Of a stretch of DNA of 64,000 nt, positions 53,357 through 64,000 are shown piece by piece. A program made the translations under genes and the position numbers. The DNA is from Methylobacterium sp. PvR107 (GTDB lineage: Bacteria; Pseudomonadota; Alphaproteobacteria; Rhizobiales; Beijerinckiaceae), in assembly GCF_017833295.1 (NCBI RefSeq), contig NZ_JAFIBW010000001.1:310001-374000 (forward strand), written 5' to 3'. How positions within the stretch are numbered: the first letter of the stretch is position 1; every line of letters begins with the position of its first letter. A model generated the notes under the pieces. It saw nothing but the letters and a program-made list of their open reading frames with translations. It ran no database searches and was not told the DNA's origin.

Positions 53357-54406
53357 TCAAGCGTGCCAGTCCGGCAGGGCCGCCTCCGGCGCGTCCAGCC
53401 AGCCCGGCACCGGCAGGTCGCGCTCGGTGAGGAAAGCCGGATTGAACAGCTTGGAGGCGTAGCGCGCCGCCCCGTCGCACAGGATGGTCACGATCGTGTG
53501 GCCGGGCCCGAGGTCCCGCGCCAGCCGGATCGCGCCGGCGACGTTGATGCCCGACGAGCCGCCCAGCGACAGCCCTTCCTCACGCATCAGGCCGAAGACG
53601 ATGTCGAGGGCCTCACGGTCCGGGATCCGGAAGGCGCGATCGGGGGTGAAGCCCTCGAGGTTGCGGGTGATGCGGCCCTGACCGATGCCTTCGGTGATCG
53701 AGGAGCCCTCGGCCTTCAGCGTTCCGGTCGTGTAATGCGCGTAGAGGGCCGAACCCTCCGGATCGGAGAGCGCGATCCGCACCTGCGGATTCCGGACGCG
53801 GAGGGCCTCGGCGGTGCCGGCGAGCGTGCCGCCGGTTCCGGCCGCGCAGACGAAGCCGTCGACCTGGCCGCCGGTCTGCGCCCAGATCTCCGGGCCGGTG
53901 CCGTCCACATGCGCCTGCCGGTTGGCGATGTTGTCGAACTGGTCGGCGAAGAAGGCGCCGGCCGGCTCCGTCGCGGAGAGCTTCTCGGCGAGCCGCCTGG
54001 CCACGTGGACGTAGTTGTTCGGGTTGGCGAAGGGCACGGCCGGCACCTCGACGAGGCGCGCGCCCGCGAGCCGCAGGGTCTGCTTCTTCTCCTCGGACTG
54101 GGTGACCGGGATGACGATCAGCGTCCGGTAGCCGCGCACCGAGGCCACCAGCGCGAGGCCGATGCCGGTGTTGCCGGCGGTGCCCTCGACGATCGTGCCG
54201 CCCGGCCGGATCAGCCCCTTCGCCTCCGCGTCCCGCACGATGGAGAGCGCCGCGCGGTCCTTCACCGACAGCCCGGGATTGAGGAACTCGGCCTTCCCGT
54301 AGATGGCGCAGCCCGTCTCCTCGGAGGCGCGGCGCAGGCGGATCAGCGGCGTCTGGCCGATGGCGGCGAGGACATCGGCGGCGGGTTCGCGACTGGGTGC
54401 GGTCAT
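53357..54406 (-). CDS. cysK: Cysteine synthase family, PLP-dependent
   Basis: 349 residues, somewhat longer than typical CysK. It should replace the acetyl group of O-acetylserine with sulfide to form cysteine. The PLP lysine lies in NPGLSVKDRAA (about 42-52); TAGNTGIGLA (75-84) binds the substrate carboxylate; GTGGTLAG (about 190-197) binds phosphate. The sequence near the end, LGGSSGINVAGAIRLA, is also conserved. It starts 40 bases after cysA on the same strand, placing cysteine synthesis in the sulfate-uptake operon. Some paralogues of this length act on other acceptors. Confidence 0.92.
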   Translation of the reverse strand: MTAPSREPAADVLAAIGQTPLIRLRRASEETGCAIYGKAEFLNPGLSVKDRAALSIVRDAEAKGLIRPGGTIVEGTAGNTGIGLALVASVRGYRTLIVIPVTQSEEKKQTLRLAGARLVEVPAVPFANPNNYVHVARRLAEKLSATEPAGAFFADQFDNIANRQAHVDGTGPEIWAQTGGQVDGFVCAAGTGGTLAGTAEALRVRNPQVRIALSDPEGSALYAHYTTGTLKAEGSSITEGIGQGRITRNLEGFTPDRAFRIPDREALDIVFGLMREEGLSLGGSSGINVAGAIRLARDLGPGHTIVTILCDGAARYASKLFNPAFLTERDLPVPGWLDAPEAALPDWHA

Positions 54407-54445
54407 GGATAGGAGCCTAGGATGCAGCGCTGCCGCTGGCGAGCC

Positions 54446-55618
54446 TCACCCGAAAACGTGCCCGCCGTTGATCCGCAGTCCGACCGGGTGCCCGGCTGGG
54501 TAGCGGATGCCGTCGAAAGCCTCCACGGCCAGCACACGCCCCTCGGCATCGACCACCTCGATCCGTTGACGGCCCTGGGTTCGATACGAGCTGCGCACGG
54601 TGCCGGACAGGTGCGCGGATTCGGGCTCGGCGAGCTGCAGCTGCCAGGGCCGCACGTAGAGCTTCACCGGGCCGATGATCCCGGCCGGCGCGACGATCGG
54701 CGTCTCGCGACCCCGCACCAGGACGCGTCCGCCCTCGGCGATCGCCTCGACCTCGACGGAATCGCCGAGGAACTTCATGACCGTGGCCGAGGCCGGGTTC
54801 TCCTGGACCTCGTCGGGGGTACCGACCTGCTCCAGGCGGCCCCGGTCGAGCACGGCCACGCGGTCCGACAGCTCCAGCGCCTCGTCCTGGTCGTGTGTCA
54901 CGAAGATCGTGGTCTGGCCGGTACGATCATGGATCTCGCGCAGCCAGCGGCGCAAGTCCTTGCGGACCTGGGCGTCCAGCGCCCCGAACGGCTCGTCCAG
55001 CAGCAGGACCCGCGGCTCGACGGCCAGCGCCCGGGCCAGCGCCACCCGCTGCCGCTGGCCGCCGGAGAGCTGCGACGGGTAGCGGTCGCCGAAGCCCGAG
55101 AGCCGGATCAGGTCGAGCAGGTCGCCGACCCGGCGCTTGATCTCGGCCTTGGCCGGCCGGTCCGCCCGGCGGCGCGCGTTCAGCCCGTAGGCGATGTTGT
55201 CGGCGACGCTCATGTGCTTGAACAGGGCGTAGTGCTGGAACACGAAGCCGACCGCCCGCTCCTGCACGGGCAGGCCTGTGGCGTCGTCGCCCCCGAACAG
55301 GATCCGGCCCCGGTCCGGCGCGTCGAGCCCGGCGATGATCCGCAGCAGCGTCGTCTTGCCCGAGCCCGACGGGCCCAGGAGCCCGATCAGCTCGCCGGCC
55401 CGCACGTCCAGAGACAGGTCGTGCAGCACGGCGGCCGTGTCGAAGGTCTTCGAGACGCCCTCGACGCGGATCGCCGTGGAGACCCGGTCAGTCAGCTCGG
55501 CCGTGCGCGAGCTCGCCTGCGAAGCGCCATTCGAGGACGGATTTGAGGACGAGGGTGATGAGGGCAAGGACGGCGAGGAGCGAAGCGACGGCGAATGCGG
55601 CGACGAAGTTATACTCAT
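54446..55618 (-). CDS. cysA: Sulfate ABC transporter, ATP-binding subunit
   Basis: 390 residues if started at the ATG 55618. Walker A is GPSGSGKTT, signature [15 protein letters not shown], Walker [12 protein letters not shown], and the H-loop [10 protein letters not shown]-terminal regulatory barrel of the CysA/MalK type follows. Homology begins only at about residue 46 ([13 protein letters not shown]). The first 44 residues are Ser/Pro-rich and are read from DNA inside the 3' end of cysW in another frame; the only alternatives are a TTG at 55567. No start codon exists nearer the conserved domain, so the true start is uncertain. Confidence 0.93.
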
Positions 55619-56369
55619 TGTAGAGGATCTCCACGTGGAGTGGGATGGTGTTGGTCAGGCCGCGGATGTGGCCCGACACCACCGACACCGCCCCGAATTC
55701 ACCCATCGCCCGGGCATTGCAGAGGAGCACGCTGTAGAGCAGGCCCCAGCGGATATTGGGCAGCGTCACCGTGCGGAACGCGTGCAGGCCCGATGCGCCC
55801 AGCGTCAGCGCCGCCTCCTCCTCGGCGGTACCCTGTTCCTGCATCAGCGGGATCAGCTCGCGGGCGACGAACGGGAAGGTCACGAACACCGTCGCCAGCA
55901 CGATCCCCGGCAGCGCGAACAGGATCTGGATGCCGTGATTGATGAGCCAGGTGCCGAACAGGCCCTGGGACCCGAACAGCAGCACGTAGATCATTCCCGA
56001 GACCACCGGCGAGACCGAGAACGGCAGGTCGATCAGGGTGATCAGCAGCGACTTGCCGGGAAACTCGAACTTGGCGATCGCCCAGGAGGCGGCCAGCCCG
56101 AACACGACGTTGAACGGCACCGCGATCGCCGCCACGGTCAGCGTCAGGCGGATCGCGCTCCAGGCGTCGGGCTCCCGGAACGCGCTCAGGAAGGCGTCGA
56201 GCCCCTTCGAGAAGGCCTGGGTGAAGACCGCGAAGAGCGGCAGCACCAGGAACAGCGCCAGGAACGCCACGGCGATCCCGATCAGAATCACGCGGACGCG
56301 GGTCCCCTCCGAGGCGACCGGGGCCGGCGTCGCGGCCGGCACGAAGGCGGGGGAGAAGATCTCAGACAT
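55488..56369 (-). CDS. cysW: Sulfate ABC transporter permease
   Basis: 293 residues with six membrane helices. The EAA-type cytosolic loop that contacts the ATPase reads [29 protein letters not shown] (about 187-215). It pairs with CysT to form the sulfate/thiosulfate channel. The start overlaps the end of cysT by eight bases, and its 3' part overlaps the chosen cysA start by 131 bases. Confidence 0.94.
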
Positions 56370-57216
56370 AGCCGAACCGCCGCCGTGACCAGGCCTGGAT
56401 CAGATTGATGGCGAGCAGCGTCAGGAACGAGATCCCGAGCATGATCGTCGCGATGGCCGCCGCGCCGCCGTAGTCGAACTCGGACAGCTTGATGATGATC
56501 AGGAGCGGCGCGATCTCCGACACGTAGGGCAGGTTGCCGGCGATGAAGATGATCGAGCCGTACTCGCCCACGCCCCGGGCGAAGGCGAGCGCGAAGCCGG
56601 TGAGCACCGCCGGGATCAGCGGCGGCAGCACCACCCTGGTGAGGGTGACGAGGCGCGTCGCCCCGAGGGTGGCGGAGGCCTCTTCGATCTCCTTGTCGAT
56701 CTCGGCGATCAGCGGTTGCACGGTCCGGACCGCGAAGGGCAGGCCGATGAACACCATGGCGATGAAGATGCCGACCGGCGTGTAGGCCGCCTGGATGCCC
56801 AGGCGGGCGAGCGGTGCGCCGAGCAGCCCGTCCGGCGCGTAGAGCGAGGCGAGCGCGATGCCGGCGACTGCGGTCGGCAGGGCGAAGGGCAGGTCCACCG
56901 CCGCGTCGACGAGCTTGCGGCCCGGGAAGCGGTAGCGGGTCAGCACCCAGGCCACAAGAAAGCCGAACACGGAGGCGACGAGCGCCGCGATCGCCGAGAC
57001 GCCGAAGCTGATCCGCAGGGCACTCGCCACCCGCGGATCGGTGGCGACGTCCCAGATCCCGGAGAGACCGAGCCCCGACGCCTTCACCACCAGCCCGGCG
57101 AGCGGCAGCAGGACGATCAGGCCGAGGCAGGTCAGGGTGTAGCCGAAGCTGATCCCGAAACCCGGGATCACGCTCGGCCGTCGGAAGGTCCAACGGGGGC
57201 GGGGCGTCTCGACCAT
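56362..57216 (-). CDS. cysT: Sulfate ABC transporter permease
   Basis: 284 residues with six membrane helices. The EAA loop is [31 protein letters not shown] (about 180-210), followed by [19 protein letters not shown], typical of CysT (also called CysU). It starts 11 bases after the binding-protein gene and overlaps cysW by eight bases, indicating a single operon. Confidence 0.94.
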
Positions 57217-57227
57217 GGTCTCAAGCC

Positions 57228-58265
57228 TCAGCGGCCGGCCCGGCTCAAACGGTCGAACAGGCCGCCGGCGTCGAAGTTCCGCTTCTGGATCTCGTCCCAG
57301 GAGCCCTGCAGATCCTCGATCTTGAACAGCTTGATGTCGGAGAGCTGCGCGAGGTCGGCCGGCGCCGCGGCCTCACGCTTGATCGGCCGGTAATGGTGCT
57401 TGGCGAAGATCGCCTGCGCCTGGTCGGTGTAAAGGAAGTCGAGATAGGCCTGCGCGGCCTTCGTCGTCCCCTTGCGCTCGGCATTGGCCGCCACGAGGGC
57501 GACCGGCGGCTCGGCGTAGATCGAGCTCGGCGGCGAGACGATGTCGAACTTGTCGGCCCCGAATTCCTGAAGCACCAAGTAGGCCTCGTTCTCCCAGGTC
57601 GGGAGCACGTCGCCGAGGCCGCGCTGCGCGAAGGTCACCGTGGAGCCGCGGGCGCCGGTGTCGAGCACCGGCACGTTCTTGTAGACCTGCCCGACAAAGG
57701 CGTCGGCCGCGTCGGAATTCTTGTCCTGATTGTAGGCGTAGCCCCAGGCGGCGAGGAAGTTCCAGCGCCCGCCCGCCGAGGTCTTCGGGTTCGGGGTGAT
57801 CACCTTCACGTCCGGCTTGATCAGGTCGGCCCAGTCCTTGATGCCCTTCGGGTTGCCCTTGCGGACGAGGAACACCACCGTGGAGGTGTAGGGCGTCGCC
57901 GTATTCGGCAGCTTGCTGCGCCAGTCCTCAGGGATCTTGCGGGTGAGCTTGGCGATGGCGTCGATGTCGGACGGAATGCCGAGGGTGACCACATCGGCGT
58001 CGACGCCGTCGATCACGGTGCGCGCCTGCGCGCCCGAGCCGCCATGCGACGCCCGCACCGTGATGGCCTCGCCGGTCTTCGCCTTCCACTGCTCCGCGAA
58101 GGCCGCGTTGATGTCCCGATAGAGCTCGCGGGTCGGATCGTACGAGACGTTTAGGAGCGCGGTCTCCGCCGCTGCCGGCAGCGCGCAGGTCCATAGGCCG
58201 GCCCCGGCGAGTAGGGAGAGCCCGATGGTCCGAGCCATCCGCCCCCGAGTTGAAGCGTTCTTCAT
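57228..58265 (-). CDS. sbp: Periplasmic sulfate-binding protein
   Basis: 345 residues from the ATG at 58265, chosen because it gives a compact signal peptide (ARTIGLSLLAGAGLWTCALPAAAE); the ATG ten codons upstream is the alternative. The mature protein has the sulfate-binding signatures LLNVSYDPTRELYRDIN, ASHGGSGAQARTVIDGVDADVVTL, NPKTSAGGRWNFLAAWGY and TFAQRGLGDVLPTWENEA. It delivers sulfate or thiosulfate to CysTWA. It is the first gene of the operon; the GTTC-N8-GAAC site is 67 bases upstream of its start. Confidence 0.95.
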   Translation of the reverse strand: MKNASTRGRMARTIGLSLLAGAGLWTCALPAAAETALLNVSYDPTRELYRDINAAFAEQWKAKTGEAITVRASHGGSGAQARTVIDGVDADVVTLGIPSDIDAIAKLTRKIPEDWRSKLPNTATPYTSTVVFLVRKGNPKGIKDWADLIKPDVKVITPNPKTSAGGRWNFLAAWGYAYNQDKNSDAADAFVGQVYKNVPVLDTGARGSTVTFAQRGLGDVLPTWENEAYLVLQEFGADKFDIVSPPSSIYAEPPVALVAANAERKGTTKAAQAYLDFLYTDQAQAIFAKHHYRPIKREAAAPADLAQLSDIKLFKIEDLQGSWDEIQKRNFDAGGLFDRLSRAGR

Positions 58266-58331
58266 CCCGTCCGATTCCCAGCCTGGCGCCTGCAACCCCA
58301 GGACAGCGCGCCCCGAGATTGCCCAGCAAGT

Positions 58332-59646: not shown

Positions 59647-62600
59647 ATGACGGTCCAGGTCTCAAGGCGTGGCCTGCTCAAGGGGGCCGGTGCCGGCCTC
59701 GCGGGCGGCTCGCTGGGCGCACTCGGATTCGGCGGACTCGAGCCCGCCATGGCCGCCGCGGTGCGGCCCTTCAAGCTCGCGCAGATGCGCGAGACCCGCA
59801 ACACCTGCCCGTACTGTTCGGTCGCGTGCGGCGTGATCCTGTACAGCCTGGGCGACCGTTCGAAGAACGCGCGCTCCTCGGTGATGCACATCGAGGGCGA
59901 TCCGGATCACCCGGTCAACCGTGGCACGCTCTGCCCGAAGGGTTCGGCGCTGCTCGACTTCGTGCATGCCGAGACCCGCACCAAGTACCCGCTCCATCGC
60001 GCCCCGGGCTCCTCGGAGTTCAAGCGCGTGTCCTGGGATTTCGCCCTCGACCGGATCGCCCAGCTCCTGAAGGAGGATCGGGACAAGAACTTCGTGGCCA
60101 AGAACGGCGACCTCACGGTCAACCGCTGGACCACGATGGGCTTCCTCGGGGCCTCGGCCACCACCAACGAGACGGCGTGGCTGACCTACAAGACAGTCCG
60201 AAGCATGGGGGCCCTGGTCTTCGATAACCAGGCTCGAGTTTGACACGGTCCGTCGGTCGCCAGTTTGGCGCCCTCCTTCGGACGCGGTGCGATGACCAAC
60301 CTCTGGATGGACATCAAGCACGCGGACGTGATCACCGTGATGGGCGGCAATGCCGCCGAGGCTCACCCCTGCGGCTTCAAATGGGTCGTCGAGGCGAAAG
60401 CCCATAACAACGCCAAGCTGATCGTCGTCGATCCGCGCTTCACCCGCACGGCCTCGGTGGCCGATCTCTACTGCCCGATCCGGCAGGGGACCGACATCGC
60501 GTTCCTGTCGGGCGTGGCCAAGTACCTGCTCGACAACGACAAGCTGCAGCACCGCTACGTTTCCGCCTACACCAACGCCGGGTACGTGGTCCGCGAGGGC
60601 TACGACTTCAGCGAGGGACTGTTCACGGGCTACGACGCGGACAAGCGCGATTACGACAAGACCACCTGGGACTACGAGATCGGCCCCGATGGCTACGCCG
60701 TGGTCGACGAGACGATGCAGCACCCGCGCTGCGTGATGCAGCTCTTGAAGAAGCACATCGCGATCTACACGCCCGAGATGGTCGAGAAGATCTGCGGCTC
60801 GCCCAAGGAGACCTTCCTGAAGGTCTGCGAGATGATGGCGACCACGGCTTCCCCCGAGAAGTCGATGGCCTCGCTGTACGCGCTCGGCTGGACGCACCAC
60901 TCCAAGGGCTCGCAGAACATCCGCTCGATGTGCATCGTGCAGACGCTGCTCGGGAACATCGGCGTGCTCGGCGGCGGCATGCAGGCTTTGCGCGGCCACT
61001 CCAACATCCAGGGGCTGACCGATATCGGGCTGATGAGCAATCTCATCCCCGGCTATCTGAGCATCCCGGTGGAGAAGGAGCCCGACTACGCGAGCTACAT
61101 CGCCAAGCGGCAGTTCAAGCCGCTGCGTCCCGGACAGACGAGCTACTGGCAGAACTACAACAAGTTCTTCGTCTCGTTCCAGAAGGCGATGTGGGGCGAT
61201 TACGCCACCAAGGACAACGATTGGGCCTACGATTACCTGCCCAAGCTCGACGTGCCGACCTACGACGTGCTGCGCGGGTTCGAGCTCGCCAAGCAGGGCA
61301 AGATGACCGGCTACGTCATCCAGGGCTTCAACCCCCTGCTGTCGTTCCCGAATCGCGCCAAGATGACGGAAGCCTTCTCCAAGATGAAGTTCATCGTGGT
61401 GATGGATCCGCTCAAGACCGAGACGGCCCGGTTCTGGGAGAATCACGGCGAGTACAACGACGTCGATCCGACCAAGATCCAGACCGAGGTGTTCGAGCTT
61501 CCGACCACCCTGTTCGTGGAGGAGGAAGGCTCGCTGTCGAACTCCAGCCGCTGGCTGCAGTGGCACTGGCAGGCGCAGGAAGCGCCGGGCGAGTGCCGCT
61601 CGGACATCGAGATCATGTCGGAGATCTTCCTCCGCGTGAAGGCGGCCTACAAGAAGGACGGCGGAGCCTTCCCGGACCCGATCGTCAATCTGAAGTGGGA
61701 CTACGCGATGGCCGAGTCGCCGACGCCGGTGGAGCTCGCCCGCGAGCTCAACGGTTACACGGTGGCGCCGACGCCGGACCTCAACGGGACGATCATCCCG
61801 GCGGGCAAGCAGGTCGACGGCTTCGCCCAGCTCAAGGACGACGGCACCACGGCCTGCGGCTGCTGGATCTACTCGGGCTGCTACACCGAGAAGGGCAACA
61901 CCATGGCCCGCCGGGACAATACGGATCCCGGCGACCGCGGCATCGCCCCGAACTGGGCCTTCGCGTGGCCGGCCAACCGGCGCGTCCTCTACAACCGCGC
62001 CTCGTGCGACCCCGAGGGGCGTCCGTGGTCGGAGAAGAAGAAGCTCATCGAGTGGAACGGCAAGCAGTGGATCGGCTTCGACGTGCCGGATTACGGCGTC
62101 ACCGTCGCCCCCGATAAGGGCGTCGGCCCGTTCATCCTGAACCAGGAGGGCGTCGCCCGCCTGTGGACCCGCGGTCTCATGCGCGACGGGCCGTTCCCGA
62201 CGCATTACGAGCCCTTCGAGTCCCCGGTGGCCAACCTCGCCTTCCCGAAGATCAAGGGCGCGCCCGCGTCCCGCATCTTCAAGGACGATCTGGCCGACCT
62301 CGGCGACGCAAAGGAGTTCCCCTACGCGGCGACGAGCTACCGCCTGACCGAGCACTTCCACGGGTGGACCAAGCACGCCCGGATCAACGCGATCCTCCAG
62401 CCGGAGGCCTTCGTGGAGATTTCGGAGGAGCTCGCCAGGGAGAAGGGCATCGCCAAGGGCGGCTGGGTCCGCGTCTGGTCGAAGCGCGGCTCGCTCAAGG
62501 CCAAGGCCGTGGTGACGAAGCGCATCAAGCCGCTGATCTGCGACGGCAAGCCCGTCCACGTCGTCGGCATCCCGCAGCACTGGGGCTTCATGGGCCACAC

Positions 62601-62727
62601 CAAGAAAGGATGGCACCCGAACTCGCTGACGCCCGTCGTCGGCGACGCGAACACCGAGACGCCGGAGTTCAAGGCCTGGCTCGTGAATATCGAGCCGACC
62701 ACGCCTCCGTCGGACGCGGTCGCGTAA
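59647..62727 (+). CDS. fdnG: Formate dehydrogenase alpha subunit, selenocysteine-containing (FdnG type)
   Basis: 1026 residues when the in-frame TGA at 60241-60243 is read as selenocysteine (Sec199). The start ATG 59647 has GGAG upstream and gives a Tat leader VSRRGLLKGAG. The [4Fe-4S] ligands are Cys54, Cys57, Cys61 and Cys96 (NTCPYCSVACG, LCPKGS). Sequence before and after the TGA is continuous with FdnG: VFDNQARV-U-HGPSVASLAPSFGRGAMTN, then MGGNAAEAHPCGFKW. The bis-MGD molybdenum or tungsten enzyme oxidises formate in the periplasm and passes electrons to the beta subunit. Two ORFs of a 'split gene' are therefore one gene. A SECIS-like hairpin follows the TGA. Confidence 0.96.
60241..60280 (+). 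promoter_or_regulatory. Selenocysteine TGA codon and bacterial SECIS hairpin
   Basis: Counting T of TGA as 1, the hairpin spans 15-32 (60255-60272): GG-U-CGCC-AGUUU-GGCG-CC, with stem pairs GG/CC and CGCC/GGCG. U17 is bulged and the loop carries G23 and U24, the three nucleotides SelB recognises in the E. coli fdhF and fdnG elements, at the same distances from the UGA. It also encodes the conserved residues SVASLA of the protein. Confidence 0.9.
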
Positions 62728-62741
62728 GGGGGAGCTGACAG

Positions 62742-63677
62742 ATGGCCGACTACAGCTCCCTCGACATCCGCCAGCGCTCCGCCTCCACGGAGACGCCGCC
62801 GGAGATCCGCCGCCAGGTGGAGGTCGCCAAACTCATCGACGTGTCGAAGTGCATCGGCTGCAAGGCCTGCCAGTCGGCCTGCGAGGAGTGGAACGACCTG
62901 CGCGACGACATCGGTGTCAACACGGGCACCTACCAGAACCCCCACGACCTCACGCCGAAGTCGTGGACCCTGATGCGGTTCACCGAGTACGAGAACCCGG
63001 AGACCAACAACCTCGAATGGCTGATCCGCAAGGACGGCTGCATGCACTGCACCGAGCCGGGCTGCCTGAAGGCCTGTCCGTCGCCCGGCGCGATCGTGCA
63101 GTACTCCAACGGCATCGTCGACTTCATCGAGGAGAACTGCATCGGCTGCGGCTATTGCGTGAAGGGCTGCCCGTTCAACATCCCGCGGATCAGCCAGACC
63201 GACCACAAGGCGTACAAGTGCACCCTGTGCTCGGACCGGGTGGCGGTGGGTCAGGCTCCGGCCTGCGCCAAGGCCTGCCCGACTGGCTCGATCATGTTCG
63301 GCACCAAGCAGGCGATGATCGAGCAGGCCGAGACCCGCGTCGTCGACCTGAAGTCGCGCGGCTTCGCCCATGCCGGCCTCTACGACCCGGCCGGGGTCGG
63401 CGGCACGCACGTCATGTACGTGCTGCACCATGCCGATCAGCCGAGCCTCTATGCCGGCCTGCCGAACGACCCGAAGATCTCCCCGCTGGTCGCCTTCTGG
63501 AAGGGCGGGGCCAAGGTGTTCGGTCTCGCCGCGATGGGTTTTGCAGCCGTGGCGGGCTTCTTCCACTACGTGACGGCCGGCCCCAACGAGGTCGTGCCCG
63601 AGGAGGAGGAAGAAGCGGTCGAGTACGACGAGGCCAAGCGCCGCGAGACCGGCGGCGACGCGGCACGGCCGCATTGA
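62742..63677 (+). CDS. fdnH: Formate dehydrogenase iron-sulfur beta subunit
   Basis: 311 residues. Four ferredoxin-type Cys clusters are present: [45 protein letters not shown] and [19 protein letters not shown], giving four [4Fe-4S] clusters that carry electrons from the alpha subunit toward the membrane. A single membrane helix near the C-terminus ([22 protein letters not shown], about 262-283) anchors it, as in FdnH. The tail is strongly acidic ([13 protein letters not shown]). It begins 14 bases after fdnG with a GGGGGAG ribosome-binding site. Confidence 0.96.
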
Positions 63678-63981: not shown

Positions 63982-64000
63982 ATGACGATCCACAGCGACA
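63982..64000 (+). CDS. Start of a gene, possibly the formate dehydrogenase gamma subunit
   Basis: ATG at 63982 with GAGAAGG upstream begins MTIHSD and is cut by the window end. The position directly after fdnG-fdnH is where the cytochrome b gamma subunit (FdnI) is expected, but six codons cannot confirm it. Confidence 0.4.

Follow-up and report, generated by a model that had tools for sequence, protein, structure and literature searches.

A predicted selenocysteine codon in an FdnG-type formate dehydrogenase of Methylobacterium sp. PvR107, a genome with dispersed sel genes and a divergent SelB

Introduction

Clusters of the form fdoGHI-selABC, in which formate dehydrogenase genes stand together with genes for selenocysteine (Sec) synthesis and insertion, have been described (PMC8124441, available portion). 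The well-studied formate dehydrogenase FDH1 of M. extorquens is an enzyme without Sec according to the accessible part of PMC13197769, and M. nodulans, listed as an 'orphan SelD' organism, is the only Methylobacterium named in the available portions of PMC5029168 and PMC5322559. Among ABC-transporter binding proteins, SaoX and SaoB are predicted selenoproteins with the motifs UxP and CUxxT (PMC13188914, in excerpt). In the partly available open-access literature we found no report of an FdnG selenoprotein in Methylobacterium, which is weak evidence of absence, and likewise no report of two SelB types in this genus or of any Sec-containing SBP_bac_5 protein, which is again weak evidence.

The window analysed here is a stretch of 64,000 nucleotides (positions 310,001-374,000) of the Methylobacterium sp. 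PvR107 genome, a single contig of 6,358,934 bases with a completeness of 99.97. It carries an fdnG gene in which the TGA at 60241 is very probably a selenocysteine codon, decoded by a SECIS element and SelB; the enzyme would be a membrane-bound, periplasmic formate dehydrogenase of the usual FdnG type. Enzymes of this kind are known; what seems less ordinary is the genus, where they appear to have been little noticed, together with the dispersed gene order and the divergent SelB.

Results

The fdnG gene and its operon

The fdnG gene lies on the forward strand at 59647..62727, with an ATG at 59647 and a TAA at 62725-62727, and encodes 1026 residues counting Sec199. The sole in-frame stop before 62725 is the TGA at 60241-60243, codon 199. 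By its matches to the TIGR01553 equivalog (1409 bits, cut-off 814; residues 4-1016 on profile positions 1-1008 of 1009), to the E. coli FdnG chain 1kqf_A (1365 bits, residues 4-1017) and to three molybdopterin oxidoreductase Pfam domains, the product is identified as a formate dehydrogenase-N alpha subunit of the ordinary FdnG type. The residues SRRGLLK near the N-terminus are consistent with a twin-arginine signal. In the 1kqf alignment the TGA falls in the column of the non-standard residue X (Sec), between the flanks DNQARV and HGP[ST]VASLAP[ST]FGRGAMTN, and the ligand position, where Sec or Cys is expected, reads as predicted Sec199 followed by H200. The frame and this alignment bear out the single in-frame TGA, placed as in FdnG, from which the initial annotation had started.

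Downstream on the same strand are fdnH for the iron-sulphur beta subunit (62742..63677; TIGR01582, 464 bits, cut-off 335) and the start of fdnI for the cytochrome b gamma subunit (63982..64000), which continues past the window end (L010:7983-8705; TIGR01583, 179 bits, over the cut-off). Both partner subunits are present in the operon, and the next gene after fdnI, outside the window, is fdhE (L010:8709-9704; TIGR01562, 263 bits). The divergent neighbour of fdnGHI, on the reverse strand at 53357..58295, comprises the sulphate ABC transporter genes cysP, cysT, cysW and cysA with a cysteine synthase gene; cysPTWA stands upstream of fdnG in 19 of the 27 named Methylobacterium or Methylobacteriaceae loci, the arrangement of the window's group. 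Sulphate transporters can carry selenate (PMC9312934, in excerpt), and a putative link to selenate uptake is possible.

It had also been expected that automated gene calling would split such a gene or call it broken, and this held in part. Among 15 plasmid relatives (of 148 records matched), 10 have no listed feature in a gene table that leaves out pseudogenes, three carry an fdnG annotation, and the remaining two records are without annotation.

The SECIS element

Directly 3' of the UGA, the Rfam covariance model SECIS_3 (RF01989) matched the forward strand at 60238..60296 over its full length (59 of 59 positions), scoring 63.9 bits where the cut-off is 63 (a margin of 0.9), with an E-value of 1.3e-12 for the window. 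No other Rfam match in the 64-kb window reached the gathering threshold, and in the whole genome this was the one SECIS_3 match over the cut-off, the runner-up reaching 19.6 bits (E 0.29). In the Rfam alignment the paired region spans 60244-60286 and the upper stem-loop 60255-60272. Counted from the TGA, U17 (60257) is an unpaired bulge and G23 (60263) and U24 (60264) lie in the loop.

Elements were recovered from 84 of 86 sequences (the window, all but one of the 80 named loci and four further genome stretches) and gave 37 distinct ones; the two sequences without an element are L068, which has an N in the codon, and L156, which is cut before the codon. U17, G23 and U24 (columns 20, 26 and 27) were invariant in all 37, in agreement with the bulged and loop bases named in the initial annotation. 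The search pattern contained the TGA and none of these three bases, and the invariance of the TGA itself in this set is uninformative.

The upper helix (helix 2) was paired in 100% of cells in the 37 sequences, and three of its seven pairs had changed on both sides (GC, CG and AU at columns 21-33; CG, AU and GC at 24-30; GC and UG at 22-32). The lower helix (helix 1) was paired in 78.7% of cells, with both-sided changes in one of nine pairs and with some pairs non-standard. For the whole structure, 28 cells were changed on both sides versus 8.3 in shuffles, and the covariation score was 0.199 versus 0.026-0.059 for slid structures. Two of the five pair measures were at shuffle level, namely the double-changed pairs (4 versus 3.3, with values as high in 208 of the 500 shuffles) and the further pair types (12 versus 10.2; 40/500). 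The shuffles ignore relatedness, so the comparisons count as support and not as a probability; they support a hairpin apparently maintained by compensatory change, although not every measure lay above the shuffles. The folding energy of the hairpin gave no support (z -0.48, 59 of 200 shuffles at least as good), although stability beyond chance is not taken here as a defining property of such elements.

Conservation and selection at codon 199

Codon 199 reads TGA in 79 of the 80 named relatives (the best 80 of 150) and TNA in the other, and the records of the relatives with TGA span several proteobacterial classes. Over all 123 rows that cover the codon, 119 read TGA, three TNA and one TGN; here the same gene is counted under different locus identifiers, and a second formate dehydrogenase accounts for five of the TGA rows and for the single TGN row. 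In the comparison of orthologues for Sec versus Cys at residue 199, TGA was kept and no Cys codon was found among the FdnG relatives (best 80 of 150 loci), nor did any relative read have an unambiguous sense codon there.

In Methylobacterium sp. 2A (G068), both formate dehydrogenase genes have a single N in the Sec codon, the fdnG rows (L049, L068 and L146) reading TNA and the second enzyme (L153) TGN. A natural loss of the TGA in this strain, a first impression, was set aside, the TNA and TGN codons being evidence neither way. The second formate dehydrogenase shares about 40% identity with FdnG and was seen in G013, G051, G033, G047, G048 and G068 (L148-L153), with TGA at the aligned codon in five genomes and TGN in the sixth; three further genomes (G027, G029 and G032) gave matches to it.

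Codon 199 is the only in-frame stop in 34 Methylobacterium fdnG sequences including the window's own, a set made up of 29 of 30 loci (the window's among them, L049 left out for its N) and five more, with the other named loci left out. In seven pairs formed with the window's fdnG, dN/dS was 0.08-0.16 before codon 199 and 0.14-0.17 after it, which argues for purifying selection on both halves of the gene. Mean synonymous variation over codons 200-214 was 0.084, versus 0.23 upstream and 0.17 downstream, and 78 of 1011 equal windows were lower.

Since the G+C-rich window holds 46 in-frame pairs of open stretches (at least 150 codons each) across one stop of any kind, fdnG's included, an open frame past a stop is a weak sign when taken alone. 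With the frame and the folding energy both within chance, the case for Sec rests on homology, the covariance model, covariation and the sel genes. A chance open frame was rejected, homology and the SECIS element carrying the case.

Sec machinery and its arrangement

The genome contains selA at 4,363,579 (554 bits), selD at 1,428,862 (412 bits) and the tRNA-Sec gene selC at 6,050,366 (75.8 bits; anticodon tca by ARAGORN), all over their cut-offs, as well as selB at 4,715,748 (263 bits), whose score is only about 20 bits above the cut-off of the family. RF01852 also matched at a second place over the cut-off (51.5 bits), which ARAGORN reads as a tRNA-Ser. With selA, selB, selC and selD in one genome, the organism has the Sec-decoding trait by gene content. 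The initial annotation had proposed that Sec is inserted at codon 199 and that this organism makes selenoproteins, and had named absence of the sel genes as the result that would speak against it; the presence of all four supports the proposal. Two short selD-like pieces (positions 235-308 and 1-49; G000:C1:4450676-4451073, reverse strand, L035) look, beside the whole selD, like a broken second copy.

The fdnG gene and the four sel genes are dispersed by hundreds of kilobases, the closest pair, selA and selB, being about 350 kb apart. Of the 53 named loci from other genera, 34 have both selA and selB no more than 10 kb from fdnG, and some of the other 19 loci end at contig ends. In some Methylobacterium genomes sel genes are also found near the fdn operon: selA, selD and selB occur there in G040 (L155) and G025 (L156), the latter on a contig equal in length to that of M. 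jeotgali (L088), in which selB and selD are seen; M. haplocladii (L081) has selB there, and strain BTF04 (L083) has selA together with a conventional SelB. Because sel genes are close to fdnG elsewhere, some Methylobacterium included, the dispersed state looks derived.

Across the genus, selA was found over its cut-off in 47 of 111 genomes, selB at E 1e-60 in 47 of 110 and tRNA-Sec at E 1e-10 in 47 of 110; G108 has selA and selB and no tRNA-Sec match, and G010 has a tRNA-Sec match alone. An fdnG of the window type occurs in 38 of 110 genomes, 37 of them with selA, while selA was found in 10 of the 72 genomes without fdnG, and these searches found neither gene in 62 of 110. The exception, G038, has an fdnG with the TGA and no selA, selB or tRNA-Sec match at the thresholds used. 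Its fdnG (L147:6088-8865) breaks off after codon 926, no fdnH was found in the 15 kb examined, and the first 926 codons are still conserved (dN 0.025, dS 0.21 versus G040). This gene looks like a recent relic: a cut fdnG is what loss of the machinery predicts, and the loss would be recent since the first 926 codons look conserved.

Two types of SelB

The SelB tree (39 rows of length at least 600, with 15 similar rows left out and a midpoint root for drawing only) separated three sets, a Methylobacterium B clade (100/100), a Methylobacterium A clade (100/99) and, weakly, the other Proteobacteria (53/36). The window's genome has a single SelB, which is of the B type, in the Methylobacterium clade on a very long branch of 1.92 changes per site, and the FdnG-linked SelB of strain BTF04 (L083) groups with the other Proteobacteria, outside the B clade. 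The B-type protein still has Pfam matches for the GTPase, for domain 2 and for the winged-helix domains. Its relationship to the solved E. coli SelB chain 5lzb_z is distant (166 bits by phmmer); where E. coli SelB has R181 and R236, presumably part of the Sec pocket, the aligned residues are likewise Arg. Every genome of the genus with an fdnG or second formate dehydrogenase match has a B-type SelB, except G069 and G038.

The A type was found in 20 of 110 Methylobacterium genomes (331 bits or more), 17 of which also have the B type, and was not found in the window's genome. The genus thus has two SelB types, with both in 17 genomes, only B in 27 (the window's included) and no B in three; the SelB loci concerned include L033:8704-10665 (reverse strand).

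A candidate selenoprotein in sister genomes

A TGA-interrupted gene for an ABC-transporter binding protein was observed in sister Methylobacterium genomes (L164-L175, L178, L179-L200 and L201:8001-9482). Among 13 A-type SelB loci compared, this single-TGA gene adjoins SelB in 11, and in the other two (L166 and L167) it lies about 2.4 kb from SelB with selA between them. Read through, it gives an SBP_bac_5 protein (Pfam) of about 495 residues. The gene occurs in 21 genomes, namely all 20 A-type genomes and G083, which has only a piece matching residues 1-202, and it was not found in the window's genome at E 1e-60. On the M. radiotolerans plasmid NZ_CP090580, the one match in 72,556 plasmid records, it adjoins an annotated selB and has no feature listed under it, in a gene table that leaves out pseudogenes. 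Outside the genus it was found in 0 of 385 class genomes (E 1e-60), a search with at most four candidates scored in the 20 listed genomes and with no positive control, which shows little.

The flanks SAEG[HN]W and VIDA of the motif SAEG[HN]WU-VIDA were kept in all 15 aligned sequences. The best 120 of 774 database matches were all 295-356 residues long, a C-terminal size, with no full-length Cys relative among them, in a search that scored only sequences of 0.55-1.75 times the query length among the 7997 candidates with most shared words; ten relatives inspected start either right where the sequence resumes after the TGA or no more than about 16 residues away. The predicted hairpin after the TGA has G24 and U25 in its loop at all 22 loci, and its upper stem is preceded by a U or a C that is sometimes paired, in contrast to the invariant U17 of fdnG. 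NikA/OppA-type models matched below their cut-offs, no Sao model matched at E 0.001, and the structure prediction was poor (mean pLDDT 55.8, below 50 in the Sec region). We put this protein forward as a candidate for a new selenoprotein, one accompanied by a SelB of its own. The co-occurrence of SelB type and selenoprotein is what suggests separate channels, and we tentatively propose, at somewhat under an even chance, that two Sec channels run in parallel on one SelA and one tRNA(Sec), in which the B-type SelB would serve the formate dehydrogenases and the A-type SelB the binding protein, each reading only its own hairpin.

G012 and G097 (L176 and L177) have selA, a B-type SelB and tRNA-Sec, and none of the three selenoproteins at the thresholds used; these two genomes may hide a further selenoprotein.

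Discussion

The DNA itself shows the codon, the operon, the four sel genes, and the hairpin and how it is conserved; Sec insertion, the metal, catalysis and the route of electrons are drawn by inference or from knowledge of the E. coli system. SelA and SelD would make Sec on tRNA(Sec). When the ribosome arrives at UGA199 of the fdnG mRNA, SelB with Sec-tRNA(Sec) would grip the 3' hairpin through the bulged U17 and the loop bases G23/U24 and would deliver selenocysteine, in place of termination by release factor 2 at this codon. By analogy with E. coli FdnG, Sec199 would be a ligand of the Mo/W centre, and FdnH and FdnI would carry the electrons from formate on to the quinone pool.

Were the TGA a true stop, fdnG would be broken or would encode two separate short proteins, and the 46 pairs in the window show how common chance open frames on either side of a stop are. 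We consider this very improbable, as 79 of the 80 named relatives (best 80 of 150), from several proteobacterial classes, share the TGA, both halves of fdnG appear to be under purifying selection, U17, G23 and U24 are invariant with a compensated upper stem, and the full Sec machinery is in the genome. Near-cognate read-through of UGA occurs, and Trp, Cys or another standard residue might be inserted in place of Sec; but none of the relatives read shows an unambiguous sense codon at 199, the solved E. coli enzyme has Sec at this site, and a SECIS element and tRNA-Sec are present, which leaves this explanation barely credible.

The trait might also be decaying, with a divergent SelB that inserts Sec poorly and an FdnG that is rarely made. 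The long SelB branch (1.92 changes per site), the dispersed sel genes, the sister genome G038 with its cut fdnG and no selA, selB or tRNA-Sec match, and the 62 of 110 genus genomes with neither fdnG nor selA would all fit such a course. However, the B-type SelB keeps its winged-helix domains and is found in all genus genomes with an fdnG or second formate dehydrogenase match except G069 and G038, and fdnG itself appears to be under purifying selection, so that we regard decay as unlikely.

Reading the codon as Sec would place the methylotrophic genus Methylobacterium, usually discussed for Cys or tungsten formate dehydrogenases, among the selenoprotein makers, and models of its formate oxidation should include a selenium-dependent route; a Sec version may matter physiologically, as the initial annotation proposed. 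The lopsided distribution of SelB offers natural pairs for studying the choice of hairpin by SelB. The pairing of an A-type SelB with a candidate selenoprotein, seen in sister genomes, is a more novel lead than the FdnG of the window.

Compared with known systems, the binding protein of Methylobacterium resembles SaoX/SaoB in being a predicted Sec-containing substrate-binding protein, and differs in that SAEG[HN]WU-VIDA is unlike the UxP and CUxxT given in the available part of the source. The hairpin matches the whole of Rfam SECIS_3 (RF01989; 59 of 59 positions), although the score is barely over the cut-off and some lower-helix pairs are non-standard. The compact fdn/fdo-sel clusters, such as the Hyphomicrobium, Bradyrhizobium and Achromobacter loci, share the same enzyme and the same Sec trait, whereas their sel genes are near fdnG and their SelBs fall outside the Methylobacterium B clade in the tree. 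In E. coli FdnGHI (1kqf) the whole alpha subunit aligns with the protein described here, with Sec in the same column, and the beta, gamma and FdhE families match; the present system differs from it in its Methylobacterium host, its dispersed sel genes and its distantly related SelB.
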